Below are positions 39,695 through 47,464 of a stretch of 61,847 nt of DNA, in pieces. The notes beneath the pieces were generated by a model, which saw nothing but the letters and a program-made list of their open reading frames with translations, was not told the DNA's origin and searched no databases. Location: positions 1 to 61,847 of the IMG/VR virus record IMGVR_UViG_3300027499_000001. The stretch is one strand, 5' to 3'. Numbering within the stretch: the first letter of the stretch is position 1; every line of letters begins with the position of its first letter. The position numbers and the translations under genes are program-made. The stretch is from a virus.

Positions 39695-41059
39695 TCACAC
39701 TGATTCCCCTGCAATAGCTAACGTATTGGAGGCACTTGCCGCAGTTGGAGTTGTTAATGTTTCAGAAAATTGGCTATTGACAGGGCTGTAAGCCGTAATA
39801 ACAAGTCCCCCTGAGAAAGCCGACACGCTGGACTCTGAATAGGTGTACGTCCTACCGTCAAGAACAGCGGAGTTTCCGGCACCCGCGCCACTCCCTGGCA
39901 TTTTAAGAACTAACACCCTGTCCGATAACCCGGACGAAAACTGATCCATAGTTATGTACACATTGTCTAAGGAATCTGTTGCAATGGATCGTACCGTAAG
40001 GCTCGCTGTAGGACATGCTAGTTTTCGCTGCCAAATCAGAGACCCCGTAGCGTCAGCACCATATTTAACAAGAAGAAGCTCCTGACGTAATCCATCAGAA
40101 CTTGTCAAGTTAGCACAGGTGTAGACATGCGTGTTACTGGGGTCCATGGCCAAGCGTACAGGCGCAATAGTTTGATCAGTAGAGAGTTGTCGTTGCCATA
40201 CAAACCCCCCCGCATTTGTGTGCCGTAAAAGCACTTGATCAGACTTGCTACCAGAAGATAACGTTGAAAATGTACGAAGCAAAAAATAACTTATCGTATC
40301 TGCCTCTCCACGGACAACGTCTATGCCCTCTTGCCTGCCCGAACCACTTGAGTCTCTTTGGGTTACTGCACCTATTGTGTCCCCTGTTGAGCGGTCAAGA
40401 ATAAGAAAAGCGGAGTCCAAATTACCAGGTGCGTCAGAGCTTGCAGCTACATTAAACCAATCTGCATTGTTTATTGAAACAGCACTTGCTGATTCAAAAG
40501 GTGAGCCGGTGTCTCCAATGTTTCTTCGAAATTGAAGCGTGCCAGAGGAATCAAGTTTAGAAACATAAATGTCAAAGCGGCTAGGGGAGAAAAAACGAGC
40601 AGCGCCTGCACAGTAAATGTTGTCGCTAGCGTCTATAGTAAGCCCAAAAAAACCACAGTCGGCTTGTACTCGACGCTGCCATTGAACAACTCCACTGCTG
40701 TTAAATTTAACAACGTAGCCTGCATTGAAGTTATTAAAAGTAACAAATTTATAGCCTGCTATAACGGGGTTACCTGCAGAGTCAATTGCAATCTGCCTGG
40801 CCACAGGCACGTCTGCCCCGTCAGTAAGCGCGACTTGCCAGGTAATACTGTCTAATGTGAGCGGGAGACTCAGTGCGGTAAGTTGTGTAACACCGGCTGC
40901 TGAAGTTTGGACAGACGCATTTAGCTGATCGCTCCTTATAGCCAGATTAGAGTTATCAACAGCATTGCCGTTAGGATTACTAATTGAAGCCAAAAAACCC
41001 ACAGGAGCAAACGCCGCGCCAAAACTGGCCCCTAAAATGTTAAGCACAATCCCGCTCAT
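39695..41059 (-). CDS. SBBP beta-propeller tail protein
   Basis: 454 residues. Repeated blades with a W.R...D..G and 'IAxDxxGNxxIAGY' pattern (for example DSAGNPVIAGY, DASDNIYCAGA) suggest a seven-bladed propeller. A hydrophobic N-terminus anchors it. It probably contacts receptor or fibres. Overlaps the next gene by 4 bases. Confidence 0.7.
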   Translation of the reverse strand: MSGIVLNILGASFGAAFAPVGFLASISNPNGNAVDNSNLAIRSDQLNASVQTSAAGVTQLTALSLPLTLDSITWQVALTDGADVPVARQIAIDSAGNPVIAGYKFVTFNNFNAGYVVKFNSSGVVQWQRRVQADCGFFGLTIDASDNIYCAGAARFFSPSRFDIYVSKLDSSGTLQFRRNIGDTGSPFESASAVSINNADWFNVAASSDAPGNLDSAFLILDRSTGDTIGAVTQRDSSGSGRQEGIDVVRGEADTISYFLLRTFSTLSSGSKSDQVLLRHTNAGGFVWQRQLSTDQTIAPVRLAMDPSNTHVYTCANLTSSDGLRQELLLVKYGADATGSLIWQRKLACPTASLTVRSIATDSLDNVYITMDQFSSGLSDRVLVLKMPGSGAGAGNSAVLDGRTYTYSESSVSAFSGGLVITAYSPVNSQFSETLTTPTAASASNTLAIAGESV

Positions 41060-42630
41060 GCCAAGTTCCCCGTTACCACTGCGCGGGTGGCGGTGATGAA
41101 AAGGATGTTGGCCACGCCACGTGTGGTGATGCTGAAGCTGCTAATGTCAGTATCAGTTCCAGCTTTATATACATCGGTGATGGCAGAGCAAGTGCAAGCA
41201 ATGGTTCCGCTGGTGTTGTTGAAGATGCTTACAACGTCCCCCGCCGCAAACACGCCCGCAGGAACAGTAACACTGCCACCAGTTCCCAGCTCAACAAATT
41301 TGCCAACGTCTGCCGCCACCAAGGTGTAACTAGACGTTTTAGTGCCCGAGGGGGGTACGTTGCGATAACCAACCTGGTTAGTGCCGTCTGCCGTGCAGTT
41401 GGTCAGCGCGCCGCTGGCAGGTGTGCCAAGAGCAGGTGTTATCAGGGTGGGGCTGTTGGCGAAGACTGCCGCGCCAGTACCCGTTTCGTCGGTCAAGGCT
41501 GCCGCCAAGTTGGCGGAAGTAAATGACCCCAAAGAAGCCGCGTTGCCGACCGAAGTGACCATGCCCGTCAGGTTGGCGTTGGTTGTCACAGTGCCTGCTG
41601 TCAGGCCTGCCGCTGTGCCCGTAATGTTGGTGCCAACCAGCGTAGTTGGTGTCCCTAAATTAGGTGTGATAAGTGTTGGGGTGTTTGCAAAAACTGCCGC
41701 ACCACTTCCTGTTTCATCAGTCAAAGCCCCAGCCAAATCAGCAGAGGTAAACGAGCCCAAAGAGGTAGCAACGCCTACTGAGGTCACCGCCCCTGTAAGG
41801 TTACCTAATGTGGGTGGTGCTTGAAACGTGGGCAATGCGCCAGGACCATTGCTGGTCAAGACGTGCGTCGCGGTTCCTGGACCGGCAGAGGCCTGGAAAG
41901 CTCCGGTGCTCGTAGTGCCCGAAAATACTACGCTGTAAGCAGTGGCAGTAGTCAGACCGGTGCCGCCCTGCGCCACACTTACCGTGGCCGCTTCTTTAAG
42001 CAATTTGCCTGTAGTGCCATCAAACGCGGCCAATGCACTGTCCGTGGCGGATGCCGGGCCTACAACGTCCCCAGACCCGACTGCGTTAATTGTCTGATTT
42101 GGCCAAGCGCCGGTGATTGTAACGTTGGTCCCTTGTACCAAAGCAGGAGTAGTGGTGCCCGTGCCCCCGCTTGTAACAGGCAGAGCAGCGCCAAGAGTCA
42201 GCGCGCTGAAATGCGACACTGCATCTATGACGTTTACCCCGTCAACATACAGGTGCATCTTTGCGCCATTGGGCACGGTAATGCCCGTGCCCGCCGCCGT
42301 TTTTACAACAATGCTTCGGCCACCTGACGTGTTGTTTTGAACCAGGTATTGCTTCTCAATTGTCGGGACTACTAAATTTCGAGTCGCGGTCAAGGAAACG
42401 CTGGACGTGACGTTTAGGACCAGGGCTCGCGGGACCTGCAAAGCGGGGCCCAGCAAGTCGGTCAGGCTGATTGTTAAATCAGCGTCAGAAGCAAAAACTG
42501 GATTACTTAGACCTGTGATGGCTTGCTCAATAGCGGTGCCAATGTTGGTGTTAGTTGTATTGCCCCAAGTGTTCGACTGCTCGCCGCTGCCGATGATCTC
42601 GAACTTGAGACTTGAAAAGGTGCTTGGCAT
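41056..42630 (-). CDS. Tail fibre protein (long form)
   Basis: 524 residues. The N-terminal 190 residues are closely similar to those of the protein at 45929-46636 (STFSxLKFExIGxGxQ, QxxNWGxTTN, KMHLYVDGVNVIDAV), a shared particle-attachment domain. Then come repeated shaft segments (for example SLGSFTSA and ALTDETGxGAAVFAN). The C-terminal segment resembles the one at 45347-45919. Long fibre that binds the host receptor. Confidence 0.85.
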   Translation of the reverse strand: MPSTFSSLKFEIIGSGEQSNTWGNTTNTNIGTAIEQAITGLSNPVFASDADLTISLTDLLGPALQVPRALVLNVTSSVSLTATRNLVVPTIEKQYLVQNNTSGGRSIVVKTAAGTGITVPNGAKMHLYVDGVNVIDAVSHFSALTLGAALPVTSGGTGTTTPALVQGTNVTITGAWPNQTINAVGSGDVVGPASATDSALAAFDGTTGKLLKEAATVSVAQGGTGLTTATAYSVVFSGTTSTGAFQASAGPGTATHVLTSNGPGALPTFQAPPTLGNLTGAVTSVGVATSLGSFTSADLAGALTDETGSGAAVFANTPTLITPNLGTPTTLVGTNITGTAAGLTAGTVTTNANLTGMVTSVGNAASLGSFTSANLAAALTDETGTGAAVFANSPTLITPALGTPASGALTNCTADGTNQVGYRNVPPSGTKTSSYTLVAADVGKFVELGTGGSVTVPAGVFAAGDVVSIFNNTSGTIACTCSAITDVYKAGTDTDISSFSITTRGVANILFITATRAVVTGNLA

Positions 42631-42632
42631 GA

Positions 42633-43418
42633 TTAAACTCCCATTTCATTACGAATCTTCGTAGCCGAGATGGCATGCGTGGCCTCGTCAAAAGATTCTT
42701 GTTCAATCTTGTAGCCCACGTCTCTGCCATAGGTGATGTTTACTACGTTGGGCACAAGTTGTATTTCGTACTGGCCTTGATACAACGGATCAAGGTCGCG
42801 CTTGATGAACTCTTTAACTTGATTTGCGGCAAAGGGGTTGGAGCCGTTCCAGCCTTGGCAGTCTCTGATCTGGATAACCACTTGACCCGTCTTGGCAATC
42901 GCACGCTCAAACAACGCACGGTGGCCCTTGTGCCACGGCTGCCATCTGCCAAGCATCTGCACGGTTTCTTTCTGCCAGTCAAACACGGAACGGCGGCGGT
43001 TGTCCAAGATGTGCGCAGCTACAAACTCACCCCACTTCTCAGCCTTTTGCTCAGTGATGCGGAAGTCGTACTGCTCCGGCGCGATGAACGCCTTGTTGGT
43101 GTCTTCAAACCGGCCCTGCTCGATGGTGTCCACCCAGACAGTCCAGTCGGCCTTGAAGTTGTTACGCATCTCCACCAGAGGGGCCACGAAGTCGCAGATC
43201 ACGTAATCGGTGGTGTAGCTGTCAGCTAACTCCCGCATGCGCAGGCTCTGGCGGATACGGCCCTCGTGAGAAAAATCCCAGTCGTTGTACTTCTTGCGCA
43301 CGTCATCGGCGTTCAGCCACATGACTGTTTTGCGCTCGTTTTGCAGGTGCTCAAGGATATGCTGAGCCAAAGTTGTTTTGCCGGAACCGGGCAAACCCAT
43401 GACTAAAATGCGCTTCAT
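42633..43418 (-). CDS. APS-kinase-like plus nucleotidyltransferase fusion
   Basis: 261 residues. The ATG at 43418 was preferred because the longer frame runs into the sulfotransferase gene; AAAGG lies upstream. Residues 8-15 are a P-loop (GLPGSGKT), followed by LNADDVR and DFSHEGRIRQ, an adenylylsulfate kinase-type order. Residues 158-166 (GRWQPWHKGH) and 250-256 (ISATKIR) are nucleotidyltransferase HxGH and ISxTxxR motifs, like NMN adenylyltransferases. A kinase plus HxGH fusion recalls PAPS synthetases, but the second domain is short, so NAD-related or sugar activation is an alternative. It is 2 bases downstream of the sulfotransferase gene. Confidence 0.75.
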   Translation of the reverse strand: MKRILVMGLPGSGKTTLAQHILEHLQNERKTVMWLNADDVRKKYNDWDFSHEGRIRQSLRMRELADSYTTDYVICDFVAPLVEMRNNFKADWTVWVDTIEQGRFEDTNKAFIAPEQYDFRITEQKAEKWGEFVAAHILDNRRRSVFDWQKETVQMLGRWQPWHKGHRALFERAIAKTGQVVIQIRDCQGWNGSNPFAANQVKEFIKRDLDPLYQGQYEIQLVPNVVNITYGRDVGYKIEQESFDEATHAISATKIRNEMGV

Positions 43419-43420
43419 GC

Positions 43421-44242
43421 TCAACCTTTGACTTTGTAGAGTGACTTGACGGAGAACTCTGGGGCTGGTTTGCGCCAAAACTCCTTGCCTGAGTACTTCT
43501 CCCACACCGACTTGGGCAGGATTGACGGGCGCTCTTGCCACGAAACTTGCTTGCGAACTGTGTGCAAGCTCTTCATGTTCAGCGCCTTGTCGTACACCTC
43601 GTTATCGTACTCGACGTTCATGTAGTCGTGGTCAAAATATGGCTTGCCGATAAAGCTATACAGCTCCCGCATCACGCTCTCGGGCTGCTTGCACAGCATC
43701 TCATACTCCACCAGCATGATCATGTCGGGGCTTAAGAGCAGGCCTTCTTCCAAGAAATAGTAGGGCTTGACGACCTGGCCTTCCTTTTTAACGTCCATTA
43801 GAGCGTCGCATCGAGTGGTTACCGTTTGGCTGGCTTCATTATCGGTCAGGCTGGCGTTCCACAAGCTGTTTTTAGTTGCAATGCGTTCAAAACTGTCCAG
43901 AATCCATGGCAGGTCCCGCACGCAGCAGATGATCTTGGTCTGTGGGTACAGAGCCTTCAAAAGCGATGTTTTGGATGTCCATCCCCGGCTAGTGTCGAAC
44001 ACGGTAGGCGGCTCAACAGCGTCGTAGTAGGCGTTGAACATGGCACGCAAGATGCTCTTGCGGCGGTCTTCATCAATCAGGTGGTTGCTCTCACTGCCCG
44101 TGATAACATTGATGGTCGATGCCACCAAGCTTTGCACGGGCGAGGAGATGTCTGCGTAGAACTCAGGGTTCTGACGCAGGATAGCCGACAGCAGAGTTGA
44201 CCCCGACCGTGGCAGCCCCGAGATGAAGAAAAACTCCTTCAT
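43421..44242 (-). CDS. Sulfotransferase-family protein
   Basis: 273 residues. The N-terminal PRSGSTLL loop is the 5'-phosphosulfate binding segment. CVRDLPWILDSF, with Arg and Ser correctly spaced, is the 3'-phosphate binding segment. Both fit PAPS-dependent sulfotransferases. Probable substrate: a sugar or polysaccharide, either on the fibre or on host surface glycans (inference). It lies between an unknown 144-residue gene (4-base overlap) and the kinase-nucleotidyltransferase gene. Confidence 0.85.
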   Translation of the reverse strand: MKEFFFISGLPRSGSTLLSAILRQNPEFYADISSPVQSLVASTINVITGSESNHLIDEDRRKSILRAMFNAYYDAVEPPTVFDTSRGWTSKTSLLKALYPQTKIICCVRDLPWILDSFERIATKNSLWNASLTDNEASQTVTTRCDALMDVKKEGQVVKPYYFLEEGLLLSPDMIMLVEYEMLCKQPESVMRELYSFIGKPYFDHDYMNVEYDNEVYDKALNMKSLHTVRKQVSWQERPSILPKSVWEKYSGKEFWRKPAPEFSVKSLYKVKG

Positions 44243-44673
44243 GCTTGAGTTTCCGCTGGCACCCAGTTGACTGTGGCTTCATCCCACTGATAACGCACGT
44301 TGCCGCCGTTCATGATGGCATCTACTGGACGAGCTACGGGGGCGCTCCAGCTCATGGTGTCCAAGTAGCCGATCCACGATGGATAGGGCTTGGTGGCTTC
44401 GTGTTCAGTCACACGGCGCTCGTTCCACTCAGCCTCGGTCAGGACTTCCAACACGCCAGGGATGTTCGTGTCGGCATCGTCATCGCAGGTGCCATAGTAT
44501 TTGGGGGCACGCAGGTATGTGCCTGTGTCGTCTGTGCTGACAGGCCATGTGGACTTATCTGTCCAAATGATCTTTAAGCCTTTAACGGCAGGCATAGAGG
44601 GGCCTGTGCGCTGTGGCTCGACAGTGCAAGGAACGCGGGTTTTGTGGTCAACTTCTGTTACAACGATGTGCAT
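44239..44673 (-). CDS. Tail fibre-associated protein of unknown function
   Basis: 144 residues. The C-terminus (VRYQWDEATVNWVP) is a short phrase common in phage fibre-adjacent proteins. The rest is mixed with several Trp and Pro. It could be a fibre-assembly chaperone. Overlaps the sulfotransferase start by 4 bases. Confidence 0.6.
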   Translation of the reverse strand: MHIVVTEVDHKTRVPCTVEPQRTGPSMPAVKGLKIIWTDKSTWPVSTDDTGTYLRAPKYYGTCDDDADTNIPGVLEVLTEAEWNERRVTEHEATKPYPSWIGYLDTMSWSAPVARPVDAIMNGGNVRYQWDEATVNWVPAETQA

Positions 44674-44688
44674 TGTGATGCTCCTTAA

Positions 44689-45336
44689 TTAAACCGATAC
44701 GCGGCGTATTGCTCGAACACGGGAATTCCCTGATTTACTGGCGTAACCTTGGTAACCATCAAGGAAGTTCTCTTGCCACGCGTACGTAGCAGAATATTGA
44801 GTGCTATTCCAATACGCACCGCCTGCAAATGCCTCTGCGTTGCCTGTTCTGAAAATTACTGCTGAAGTTTGGGCAGGGTTACCTGTGGTGTAGTTTGATG
44901 CCCTTGCAGGTACGGCATTAGGGTTTATACCGAACGCTGTATTGTTTGAAGCTGTGCTTGGTTTTAAATTGTAGTAACACACCTCTAACTCGTTTTTAGC
45001 TGGCAGATACCAATCGCTAAAACCTCCAATTGTCAACCCCTCGCAGAACTGTGCTGCTGGATGACTTGCATCATTCATATTAGCGCTGTTTGCAGGGCCG
45101 TCAATTACCGAGTCTGTCCCTGTTGTTGAGGTGTTTGTAGTTTTCCATCGCAAACTTAAATTTTGCGCAGTAGATAGTGGACCGACTACGAGATTGTGTG
45201 TAGCAACACTATTCGCAGTAGTAGAAATCTGCCCCGCAAAAAACCCTCCCCCATAGGCCTCCCCAACTACAGGGGGAGCAGGTGGTGGCCCAAACGAGCG
45301 CTGATTCATAAACGAAATTTGTTGTGCGCCGCTCAT
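44689..45336 (-). CDS. DUF1566/C-type-lectin-like receptor-binding protein
   Basis: 215 residues. The C-terminal domain contains GGFSDWYLPAKNELEVCYY ... YWNSTQYSATYAWQENF ... SRVRAIRRVSV, the DUF1566-type lectin-like fold seen in variable receptor-binding proteins. This is a good candidate for host-specific recognition. Neighbour of the sulfation cassette. Confidence 0.75.
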   Translation of the reverse strand: MSGAQQISFMNQRSFGPPPAPPVVGEAYGGGFFAGQISTTANSVATHNLVVGPLSTAQNLSLRWKTTNTSTTGTDSVIDGPANSANMNDASHPAAQFCEGLTIGGFSDWYLPAKNELEVCYYNLKPSTASNNTAFGINPNAVPARASNYTTGNPAQTSAVIFRTGNAEAFAGGAYWNSTQYSATYAWQENFLDGYQGYASKSGNSRVRAIRRVSV

Positions 45337-45346
45337 ATTAACGCCT

Positions 45347-45919
45347 TTAAGTCAATCCGCTACCAGAAATCAGCCACTCAGTAGCTGAGATTTTGATACA
45401 CGTTGCCGACCCGTTTGTTGCCAAGGTCCGTGAACCTGTTGTGCCTGCGGAAGACAATATCAGAGTATCTGTTGTAATAGCAATCGTAACGTCCGCCACA
45501 GCCATGTTAATGAACGTGAGCGCGGTGCCAATCGGATAAGCTACCGAGCTGTTTGCTGGGATCGTAAAGGTCCTTGCGTTGTTGTCCGCTGCTGGGTGAA
45601 AAATATGCTTGCCGGCGTCAGCAAGCACAAGAGTGTAAGCCGCGCTTTGGCTGTTTTGCGGGATGTTTCTAAAGCCAACAGCGTCAGTACCGTCGACCGT
45701 GCAAGAAGACAGCGTGCCAGATGACGGGGTGCCCAGTGCTCCGCCAGGGACTACGACAGAGGCAAAACCTAGCACCCCTGATCCGTCTGTCGTCACGGCC
45801 TGTCCGGCCGTTCCATCTGCAACAGGGAGCGTAAGAGAAAAAATACTATTGGTGTTGCCAGATTGCAGCGTTGTAGTTCCCGTACCCAACGCATTTCCTT
45901 GAACTTTTAAATTGCTCAC
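45347..45919 (-). CDS. Tail fibre, C-terminal-type fragment or partner
   Basis: 190 residues starting at GTG (AAGGA 7 bases upstream). The middle (GALGTPSSGTLSSCTVDGTDAVGFRNIP) matches the end part of the long fibre at 41056-42630. Together with the gene at 45929 it looks like the same fibre split into two proteins. Confidence 0.75.
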   Translation of the reverse strand: MSNLKVQGNALGTGTTTLQSGNTNSIFSLTLPVADGTAGQAVTTDGSGVLGFASVVVPGGALGTPSSGTLSSCTVDGTDAVGFRNIPQNSQSAAYTLVLADAGKHIFHPAADNNARTFTIPANSSVAYPIGTALTFINMAVADVTIAITTDTLILSSAGTTGSRTLATNGSATCIKISATEWLISGSGLT

Positions 45920-45928
45920 AATAAGTCC

Positions 45929-46636
45929 TTAGTTAAAAATTAACCATTTTTGATTAGAGCCCACTGTTACAGAATATCCTGTATTAACTGTCACAGGCCC
46001 CACTGCTACAGCATTTTTCCCTGCTCCGATTATAAAATTCTCTGAAATTTCTTGGTTATTCTCTAAAAGTGCTCCACCGCCGCCTCCGCCGCTTGCGGCA
46101 ATTGTCTGATTTGGCCATGCACCCGTGATAGTGACATTGGTTCCGGCCACCAAGCTGGGGGTCGTGGTCCCGGTGCCTCCACTCAAAACAGGTAGTGCAG
46201 CGCCAAGAGTAAGGGAGCTAAAACGCGAAACCGCGTCTATCACGTTTACCCCGTCAACGTACAGGTGCATCTTGCTGCCATTGGGGACCGTGATACCTGT
46301 GCCTGCAGCCGTCTTTACCGTGATGCTTTGAGCGCCTGCAGTGTTGTTTTGAACAATATACTGCTTCTCAATTGTCGGAACAACGAGTTCACGCGTTGCA
46401 GTTAAACTGCCTGTGGACGTGACGTTAAGGACCAAGGCCCGCGCCGTTTGAAGGGCAACAGTGTCAGTAAGGCCAATCGTCAGGCTTGCATCTGTCGTGA
46501 AGATGGGATTGCCAAGGCCTGTTATAGCTTGTTCAATGGCCGTGCCAATGTTGTCATTGGTGGTCTGCCCCCAATTGCCTGCCTGGTCTCCAGTGCCAAT
46601 CAGTTCAAATTTAAGGTCTGAAAAGGTGCTTGCCAT
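45929..46636 (-). CDS. Tail fibre, N-terminal attachment-type protein
   Basis: 235 residues. The first 190 or so residues are nearly the same as in the long fibre. It ends with a short different C-terminus. Duplicated attachment domain with different tips is a way to swap host range. AAGGA ribosome site 7 bases before ATG. Confidence 0.8.
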   Translation of the reverse strand: MASTFSDLKFELIGTGDQAGNWGQTTNDNIGTAIEQAITGLGNPIFTTDASLTIGLTDTVALQTARALVLNVTSTGSLTATRELVVPTIEKQYIVQNNTAGAQSITVKTAAGTGITVPNGSKMHLYVDGVNVIDAVSRFSSLTLGAALPVLSGGTGTTTPSLVAGTNVTITGAWPNQTIAASGGGGGGALLENNQEISENFIIGAGKNAVAVGPVTVNTGYSVTVGSNQKWLIFN

Positions 46637-46645
46637 AATGCGTCC

Positions 46646-47464
46646 TTATGTGAGAATTGTAGACCATGCAACGGCATTACTGTCGTTAACAGGCGTCCAC
46701 GTAACGGTATTATTGTCGTTAACAGCCCCCCATACAAGCACGTTTCCAATCCGCCCTGTCGCCTGTACCCCGATCGGCCGTACAGTTACGTCTACGAACA
46801 CAATGGAACCTACCTCCCCTGCCCCTGTTACTCCGGTAACGGGGGTAGTGGCGAATCCCTGCACAGCGGCCTGACCTACCGCTGTAGTGCTCTGTACCCC
46901 GGTAACAAAGACCGAAGTAGTGGCAGAGGTGTCTATGGTTACTTGACCGACAGAGGAAACAGCAGCTACCCCTGTAACGTCTACCGAAACAGAAGTAAAA
47001 CTCTCAACAGCTACGTTGCCTACCGCAGCCGCCCCCTCCACGCCCGTAACAGCGATATGGGCCGCGCCCTCCACCGCCACTTGACCGACAGAGGAAACAG
47101 CAGCTACCCCTGTAACGTCTACAAGCGTAGCACCTGCCGTTTGTACCGTAACTTGGCCTACCGCAGCCGCCCCCTCCACGCCCGTAACATTAACGGACGT
47201 TAGAGTGTCCACCGCCACTTGACCCGCCGCCCCGACAGCCGATACCCCAGTGACAACAATAAGCGCCGCGCCCTCCACCGCCACTTGACCCGCCGCCCCG
47301 ACAGCCGATACCCCAGTGACAACAACTTCTGCGCCTTGCCCAGACGTAACTGTTCCTACCGCTCCAGTTGCAGCAATATCAAGCGCGCCTTCTCCCCAAG
47401 GCTGTTCCCCCCAGCCTACGCCAGACGCGTTCCATCCGTCAAAGGCAACCGCTGCATTGGCCAT
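46646..47464 (-). CDS. Tail protein with tandem VTGV repeats
   Basis: 272 residues made largely of repeats of about 22 residues (VTGVSAVGAAGQVAVEG-like). At DNA level two 66-base-spaced copies (from about 47209 and 47275) are nearly identical. Repeated short beta solenoid-like units suggest a shaft or spacer protein. Highly variable copy number is expected between strains. Confidence 0.7.
   Translation of the reverse strand: MANAAVAFDGWNASGVGWGEQPWGEGALDIAATGAVGTVTSGQGAEVVVTGVSAVGAAGQVAVEGAALIVVTGVSAVGAAGQVAVDTLTSVNVTGVEGAAAVGQVTVQTAGATLVDVTGVAAVSSVGQVAVEGAAHIAVTGVEGAAAVGNVAVESFTSVSVDVTGVAAVSSVGQVTIDTSATTSVFVTGVQSTTAVGQAAVQGFATTPVTGVTGAGEVGSIVFVDVTVRPIGVQATGRIGNVLVWGAVNDNNTVTWTPVNDSNAVAWSTILT

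Follow-up and report, generated by a model that had tools for sequence, protein, structure and literature searches.

Why would a tailed phage encode a sulfotransferase and an APS-kinase-like enzyme among its tail fibre genes, and what would these enzymes sulfate? A sequence-only reading of the genome described a sulfotransferase, a kinase/nucleotidyltransferase fusion, an unknown gene, and a lectin between two fibre loci. It proposed that these genes form a swap-in cassette that might sulfate glycans on the fibre or alter the host's surface polysaccharide. The window that we analysed is the whole of one virus record (61,847 bases). It represents a tailed phage with genes for a portal, a major head protein, and a phage-type polymerase, helicase, and primase; a named relative is Phage DSL-LC04, whose primase is 79% identical. 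No lysogeny genes were noticed in this phage.

All of the genes that had been named are present on the minus strand where they were expected, and both their positions and Pfam confirm the described arrangement (Table 1). The order of transcription is fibA, fib190, Lcl, u144, ST (the sulfotransferase), kinase-nucleotidyltransferase, fibB, and the beta-propeller-repeat protein. The cassette genes are closely packed: u144 and ST overlap by a few bases, and the kinase gene directly follows ST. The kinase most likely starts at the ATG at 43418, which corrects an earlier start at the GTG at 43541, because the extra 41 residues would overlap the ST gene and the relatives are 261-264 aa long.

Table 1. 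Features of the cassette and its borders, with positions in the window
Feature	Position	Strand	Description
fibA	45929..46636	-	Fibre gene (235 aa) whose N-terminal part is the anchor domain; marks the cassette's upstream border; phrog_31104 (6e-15), phrog_12796 tail fiber (2e-13)
fib190	45347..45919	-	Short fibre/shaft protein; lies before the lectin, as do its homologues in many cassettes
Lcl	44689..45336	-	Lcl_C (DUF1566) C-type-lectin-like receptor-binding protein, 215 aa; PF07603 (1.2e-12); 122 distinct homologues aligned
Lcl hypervariable C-terminal region	44704..44829	-	Shares homology with the VR of cassettes that have a retroelement
u144	44239..44673	-	144 aa; occupies the slot for tail-fibre assembly; phrog_7759-like C-terminus; close linkage to ST
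ST	43421..44242	-	Predicted PAPS-dependent sulfotransferase (PF13469, 7e-19), 273 aa
Kinase-nucleotidyltransferase fusion	42633..43418	-	261 aa; APS-kinase-like N-terminal part and NMNAT-like C-terminal part (HxGH/ISxTxIR); phrog_10255 (8e-52)
fibB	41056..42630	-	Second fibre (524 aa), with an anchor domain homologous to that of fibA and a repeat shaft; marks the downstream border
Beta-propeller-repeat protein (SBBP repeat)	39695..41059	-	454 aa; after fibB, also in siblings with other cargo

A mobile cassette in a receptor-cargo slot

FibA and FibB share an N-terminal anchor domain that is 79% identical over 187 amino acids (76% over 300 nt). The two anchors are clearly homologous in a proper alignment, but at this level of identity they are not "near-identical," as they had been called. 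A second short region is common to fib190 and fibB (55% over 47 aa).

Sibling phages were found by scanning with a conserved neighbour gene, g219. In one contig (loci L312 and L396), g219 is 100% identical to the window's copy and fibA is 92% identical, and then other genes follow. In L397, L394, and L400, both anchors are well conserved (89-92% for fibA and 69-85% for fibB) and other receptor genes lie in between. For instance, the slot in L397/L398 (fibA 92%, fibB 85%) is occupied by a repeat protein of 700 aa, another protein of 84 aa, a glycosyltransferase-like protein (phrog_34859, 2.7e-4 in L397), and a tail-fibre-assembly protein. L394, L327, and L400 have still other kinds of cargo. 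The receptor cargo between the two anchors is thus wholly different in the nearest siblings, which shows that fibA and fibB flank a slot whose contents differ. We conclude that the anchors bracket a site of receptor-cargo exchange.

The cassette itself is found far beyond these siblings. Searches that started from the kinase, ST, or u144 identified the order Lcl (1-3 copies), u144, ST, kinase in dozens of other viral contigs with differing flanks. Also, ST is present in 169 of the 171 locus records that contain u144, some of which share one contig. Across the 52 loci that allowed a comparison of outside genes, ST has a median identity of 87.5% to the window's copy, versus a median of 34% for 127 genes outside the cassette; several of these loci come from the same contig or from related samples, so they should not be counted as independent events. 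The conservation of gene order is far above chance. Lcl, u144, ST, and the kinase travel as one unit between distantly related phages. The different cargo in the siblings, together with the presence of the cassette in phages whose other genes are about 28-43% identical, strongly supports the proposal of a swap-in cassette. Both enzymes appear to be under purifying selection, as judged from dN/dS values of about 0.04 (ST) and 0.03 (kinase), with dS saturated for most pairs.

The sulfotransferase and its predicted donor pathway

ST belongs to the sulfotransferase family PF13469 (69.4 bits, as compared to a cut-off of 27). Its predicted PAPS-binding sites, which are the loop for the 5' phosphosulfate (PRSGST) and the site for the 3' phosphate (VR.......S), are intact: R12, S13, G14, S15, T16, R109, and S117 are invariant across 23 sequences. 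The structure models of ST and the kinase rest on 21-23 sequences and have mean pLDDT of 79 and 74. The best 13 Foldseek matches for the model of ST are all tyrosylprotein sulfotransferases (E = 5e-10 to 2e-8, TM about 0.5), and glycan sulfotransferases are among the next nearest. A profile search found the tyrosylprotein sulfotransferase family as well, along with a CurM-type domain. Both the conserved sites and the predicted fold support PAPS as the probable donor for ST.

The human enzymes TPST1/2 are among these best fold matches, and their PAPS loop is similar (PRSGTT). However, they are just 16-20% identical to ST, which has no visible membrane anchor. Furthermore, Ser33 of ST aligns with the catalytic glutamate of tyrosylprotein sulfotransferases, which lies in their GEETR motif. 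We therefore do not consider ST to be a canonical tyrosylprotein sulfotransferase, and its substrate class cannot be read from its family. ST also shares PF13469 with the sulfotransferases of cyanophages and OM43 phages (about 24-32% identity), which are viewed as metabolic genes. The function of phage sulfotransferases is stated to be unclear (PMC10580990). Sulfotransferases have repeatedly been listed as viral metabolic genes; here, one lies in a conserved mobile cassette with an apparent donor-making enzyme.

That enzyme, the kinase-nucleotidyltransferase, matches APS_kinase (PF01583) at 2.5e-11 and, weakly, CTP_transf_like (6e-4). The profile search found APS kinases at 2e-13, and the 50 best matches of its model among solved structures are all APS kinases or PAPS synthetases. 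The P-loop (G8, G13, K14, and T15) is invariant across 21 sequences, as are R41, F49, and R54, which align with the APS-binding Arg, Phe, and Arg of APS kinases. The fused kinase scores 34.8 bits against the equivalog model TIGR00455 and stand-alone relatives score 57 bits, both below the cut-off of 138.7. Together, the motifs and the model support the prediction that the kinase domain phosphorylates APS to PAPS. The sulfation chemistry proposed from the sequence is, in this sense, well supported by the predicted structures of both enzymes.

The C-terminal nucleotidyltransferase has intact and invariant HxGH and ISxTxIR motifs and resembles NMN adenylyltransferase; the last part of its model is poor (pLDDT below 50). 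The fusion recalls bifunctional PAPS synthetase (APS kinase and ATP sulfurylase), which also joins a kinase to an HxGH-type nucleotidyltransferase, but the domain in the phage is small (about 110 aa) and NMNAT-like. Family and profile searches gave no match to an ATP-sulfurylase family, so we rejected this identification. The domain may make APS or may serve another pathway.

Do the kinase and ST act together? For 23 of the 71 ST sequences that were classified, ST is followed by a gene for a stand-alone APS-kinase-like protein (PF01583, 1e-15; apsK, 2e-15) instead of the fusion. The fused and stand-alone types alternate on the tree of ST, with at least 10 switches, four of which are forced by supported branches. 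Conversely, the same fused kinase is found, beside RCC1-repeat proteins, with another ST that is 25-29% identical. In a sample of kinase loci that was chosen blind to ST, an ST was nearby in 49 of 80, as compared to 0 of 150 background loci. These pairings in both directions, one ST with different kinases and one kinase with different STs, are good evidence that the two enzymes belong to one pathway, even though the other 31 of the 80 loci have no ST nearby.

Alternatively, the fusion could be a general phage enzyme for cofactors or nucleotides that has nothing to do with sulfate and is merely parked beside ST. Besides the NMNAT-like domain, the distribution of the fusion fits this idea: it is found in Stenotrophomonas/Xanthomonas phages and, at 83-86% identity, in larger phages where we found no ST from PF13469. 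When we re-checked 23 records with the kinase, only 5 had any match to PF13469, and just 2 of these were above the cut-off. We can thus reject the idea that every phage with the kinase has an ST, and the fusion does more than supply an ST. But the replacement of the fusion by stand-alone APS-kinase-like genes after ST, and its pairing with a second ST, speak against this alternative, which we consider improbable. A phosphoramidate kinase/cytidylyltransferase of the Campylobacter kind is a further candidate reading of the fusion.

The lectin and a diversity-generating retroelement

Lcl belongs to the Lcl_C family (PF07603, 48.6 bits, as compared to a cut-off of 34.9); a search of its sequence against PDB gave no significant match. 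The 122 distinct copies differ from one another mostly at residues 171-206, and T or C is the last base of many variable codons. Two related cassettes, L088 and L124, contain a complete diversity-generating retroelement between Lcl and u144. It comprises avd (PF22296, bAvd, 1e-12), TR, and RT (PF00078, 5e-15). L088 is one of four contigs with the same genes (L088-L091) and an ST that is 96% identical to the window's; the ST of L124 is 87% identical. The mismatches between TR and VR are at adenines of TR in 20 of 21 cases in L088 and L124's 23 of 23. With adenine-specific differences, RT, and avd, both are diversity-generating retroelements. The lectin target with its VR, avd, TR, and RT are all shared with phage retroelements of the BPP-1 type; what differs is the presence, in the cassette, of genes for a sulfotransferase and an APS-kinase-like enzyme.

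The window's lectin is a member of the same family as these targets, in which related cassettes use a retroelement to diversify the tip. The window itself does not contain a retroelement: RT (RVT_1), avd, and TR are all missing from the 61,847-base record, and the gap between Lcl and u144 is only 15 nt. This suggests that the tip of the window's lectin is a frozen variant. When we compared it to the templates of L088 and L124, differences at adenine sites were more common than expected (p of about 0.03, or 0.005 for codon positions 1-2), which is a modest signal. A family search found RT in 1 of 36 cassette contigs (L124 was outside of that set), so most copies of the cassette appear to be frozen as well. 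The sequence-only reading had missed both the link to the retroelement and the interchangeability of the kinase.

The proposed target of sulfation

With moderate confidence, we propose that this is an exchangeable receptor-recognition cassette with its own sulfation machinery, and that ST sulfates a virion protein that the cassette encodes, or a glycan on it. APS would be made by the host's ATP sulfurylase or by the fused nucleotidyltransferase, and the kinase would convert it to PAPS. ST would then act in the cytoplasm during virion assembly, moving sulfate to the virion protein before the tail is built. The candidate substrates are Lcl, fib190, u144, or a fibre, which might be modified on tyrosine or another hydroxyl, or on a glycan that is already there. 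The sulfate might tune receptor binding, stability, or assembly.

Relatives of ST in bacteria bear on this proposal. In one genome scan, proteins about 42% identical to ST were found in Pseudomonas, Rheinheimera, Cellvibrio, Acidovorax, Gracilimonas, and others. The bacterial ST is directly upstream of a giant protein of the DUF4347 and cadherin/Ig-repeat kind (as checked on one representative) in 49 of 72 loci, which include non-independent loci from Pseudomonas. In Rheinheimera, Gilvimarinus, and Cellvibrio, three tail-collar genes lie in front of ST on the same strand. These neighbours suggest that STs of this lineage go with surface proteins and not with polysaccharide loci. We favour a protein target because the enzymes are in a late structural operon, no leader sequence is seen on ST, u144 and Lcl are tightly linked to it, and the bacterial neighbours are DUF4347 or tail-collar proteins.

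Instead, the enzymes might sulfate the host's surface polysaccharide or a lipid-linked precursor, which could keep progeny from re-adsorbing to the cell or to debris, or could fit the receptor to the lectin. The Lcl protein of Legionella, which has the same Lcl_C domain, binds sulphated glycosaminoglycans (PMC11162425), so the lectin and the sulfation could concern the same glycan. Also, the best NCBIfam match of ST is the nodulation protein NoeE (far below its cut-off), and sugar-nucleotide genes (CTP_transf, PfkB, and epimerase) are present in some kinase loci, such as L046. However, the window's cassette has no glycan-processing gene, its enzymes lie among late structural genes in a phage where lysogeny genes were not noticed, and the linkage is to u144 and Lcl and, in bacteria, to giant secreted proteins. 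We think that modification of the host is unlikely, albeit the leading alternative.

A glycan on the fibre could be the target if a glycosyltransferase decorates the fibre proteins and ST sulfates the sugar. In a second class of cassettes, ST is fused to a domain of about 320 aa with a very weak glycosyltransferase-9 signal, beside sugar-nucleotide genes, and the slot of L397 has the glycosyltransferase-like gene mentioned above. But the glycosyltransferase-9 match is not significant (E = 0.2), and we rejected it; furthermore, neither the window's cassette nor its close copies contain a glycosyltransferase. We therefore doubt this pathway strongly. Overall, the sulfation chemistry of the original proposal holds up, while the evidence on the target leans towards virion proteins, and nothing points specifically to the blocking of superinfection.

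Does the cassette resemble any known system? RaxP and RaxQ are the PAPS-making proteins of the Rax system of Xanthomonas. In its gene make-up, the cassette is like the tyrosine-sulfation cluster RaxX-RaxST of these bacteria: both combine a small protein, a sulfotransferase, and a supply of PAPS (PMC6637879). But the cassette has no secretion genes and is phage-borne, within tail genes. In the openly licensed literature, we did not find an earlier report of a sulfotransferase and APS-kinase-like pair with a retroelement lectin, nor a description of phage tail sulfation, of a diversity-generating retroelement with a sulfotransferase, or of tail collar, sulfotransferase, and adhesin together.

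More tentatively, we suggest that the virus sulfates its own receptor-binding apparatus, with a retroelement-diversified lectin, a protein sulfotransferase, and a PAPS enzyme forming a plug-in module across freshwater phages, and that the bacterial counterpart modifies giant surface proteins. If virion sulfation does occur, it would add a new layer to phage-host recognition, joined to the targeted hypermutation of the lectin's tip, and the linkage to giant DUF4347 proteins in bacteria would point to protein sulfation as a general system in surface adhesion.

The cassette places ST beside the receptor-binding proteins, which we regard as its likeliest substrates. One of the candidates, u144, takes the place of a tail-fibre-assembly protein (phrog_4912) in the siblings. 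It contains a highly conserved acidic stretch, YYgTCDdDAD, which includes Tyr59 and Tyr60 and looks like an acidic context for tyrosine sulfation, although this resemblance is only suggestive.

Sulfotransferase and fused kinase in other phages

Large phage contigs of 60-101 kb (L058, L062, L077 and others) encode a fused kinase-nucleotidyltransferase that is 84-86% identical to the window's, and none of these contigs had a match to PF13469 (sulfotransferase) above the cut-off. In some of them, the kinase adjoins genes resembling GTP cyclohydrolase I and 6-pyruvoyl-tetrahydropterin synthase.

The second class of sulfotransferase cassette contains RCC1-repeat proteins (up to four per locus), and its sulfotransferase is fused to an unknown domain of ~320 amino acids. 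This fusion is followed by a 136-amino-acid protein and then by the same fused kinase as in the window. Downstream of the kinase are cytidylyltransferase-like, cupin, PfkB, and epimerase genes, which possibly form a sugar-nucleotide pathway.

Fibre cargo and the neighbouring repeat protein

In the comparable region of Phage DSL-LC04, a named relative, the gene for a putative lectin is accompanied by genes for a 2OG-Fe(II) oxygenase and for a ConA-like lectin/glucanase annotated at about 1,365 amino acids. This region hints that a modifying enzyme is often part of the fibre cargo.

The protein upstream of fibA has tandem repeats spaced 66/138 nt. Its conservation among siblings of the window phage is about 42-57%, versus about 85-100% for its neighbours g219 and g145.

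Bacterial loci

The bacterial clusters L250, L248, and L264 each have three tail-collar proteins; in L264 and L295, the sulfotransferase's stop overlaps the start of the next gene. In about 20 loci, a PMT_2-type gene immediately precedes the sulfotransferase.

Coordinates of features (L-numbers are locus records)
Feature	Position	Remark
272-aa tandem-repeat protein	window 46646-47464	just upstream of fibA
Second cassette class	L046:1179-10956	similar loci L034-L049
Glycosyltransferase-like gene (phrog_1574)	L397:3825-4508	cargo slot of a sibling of the window phage
Comparable region of DSL-LC04	L007:20164-28257	
Bacterial cluster: tail-collar proteins, sulfotransferase, giant DUF4347/cadherin-type protein	L250:6167-16771	also L248, L264, L295
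PMT_2-type membrane mannosyltransferase gene	L239:6253-7854	also other Pseudomonas loci
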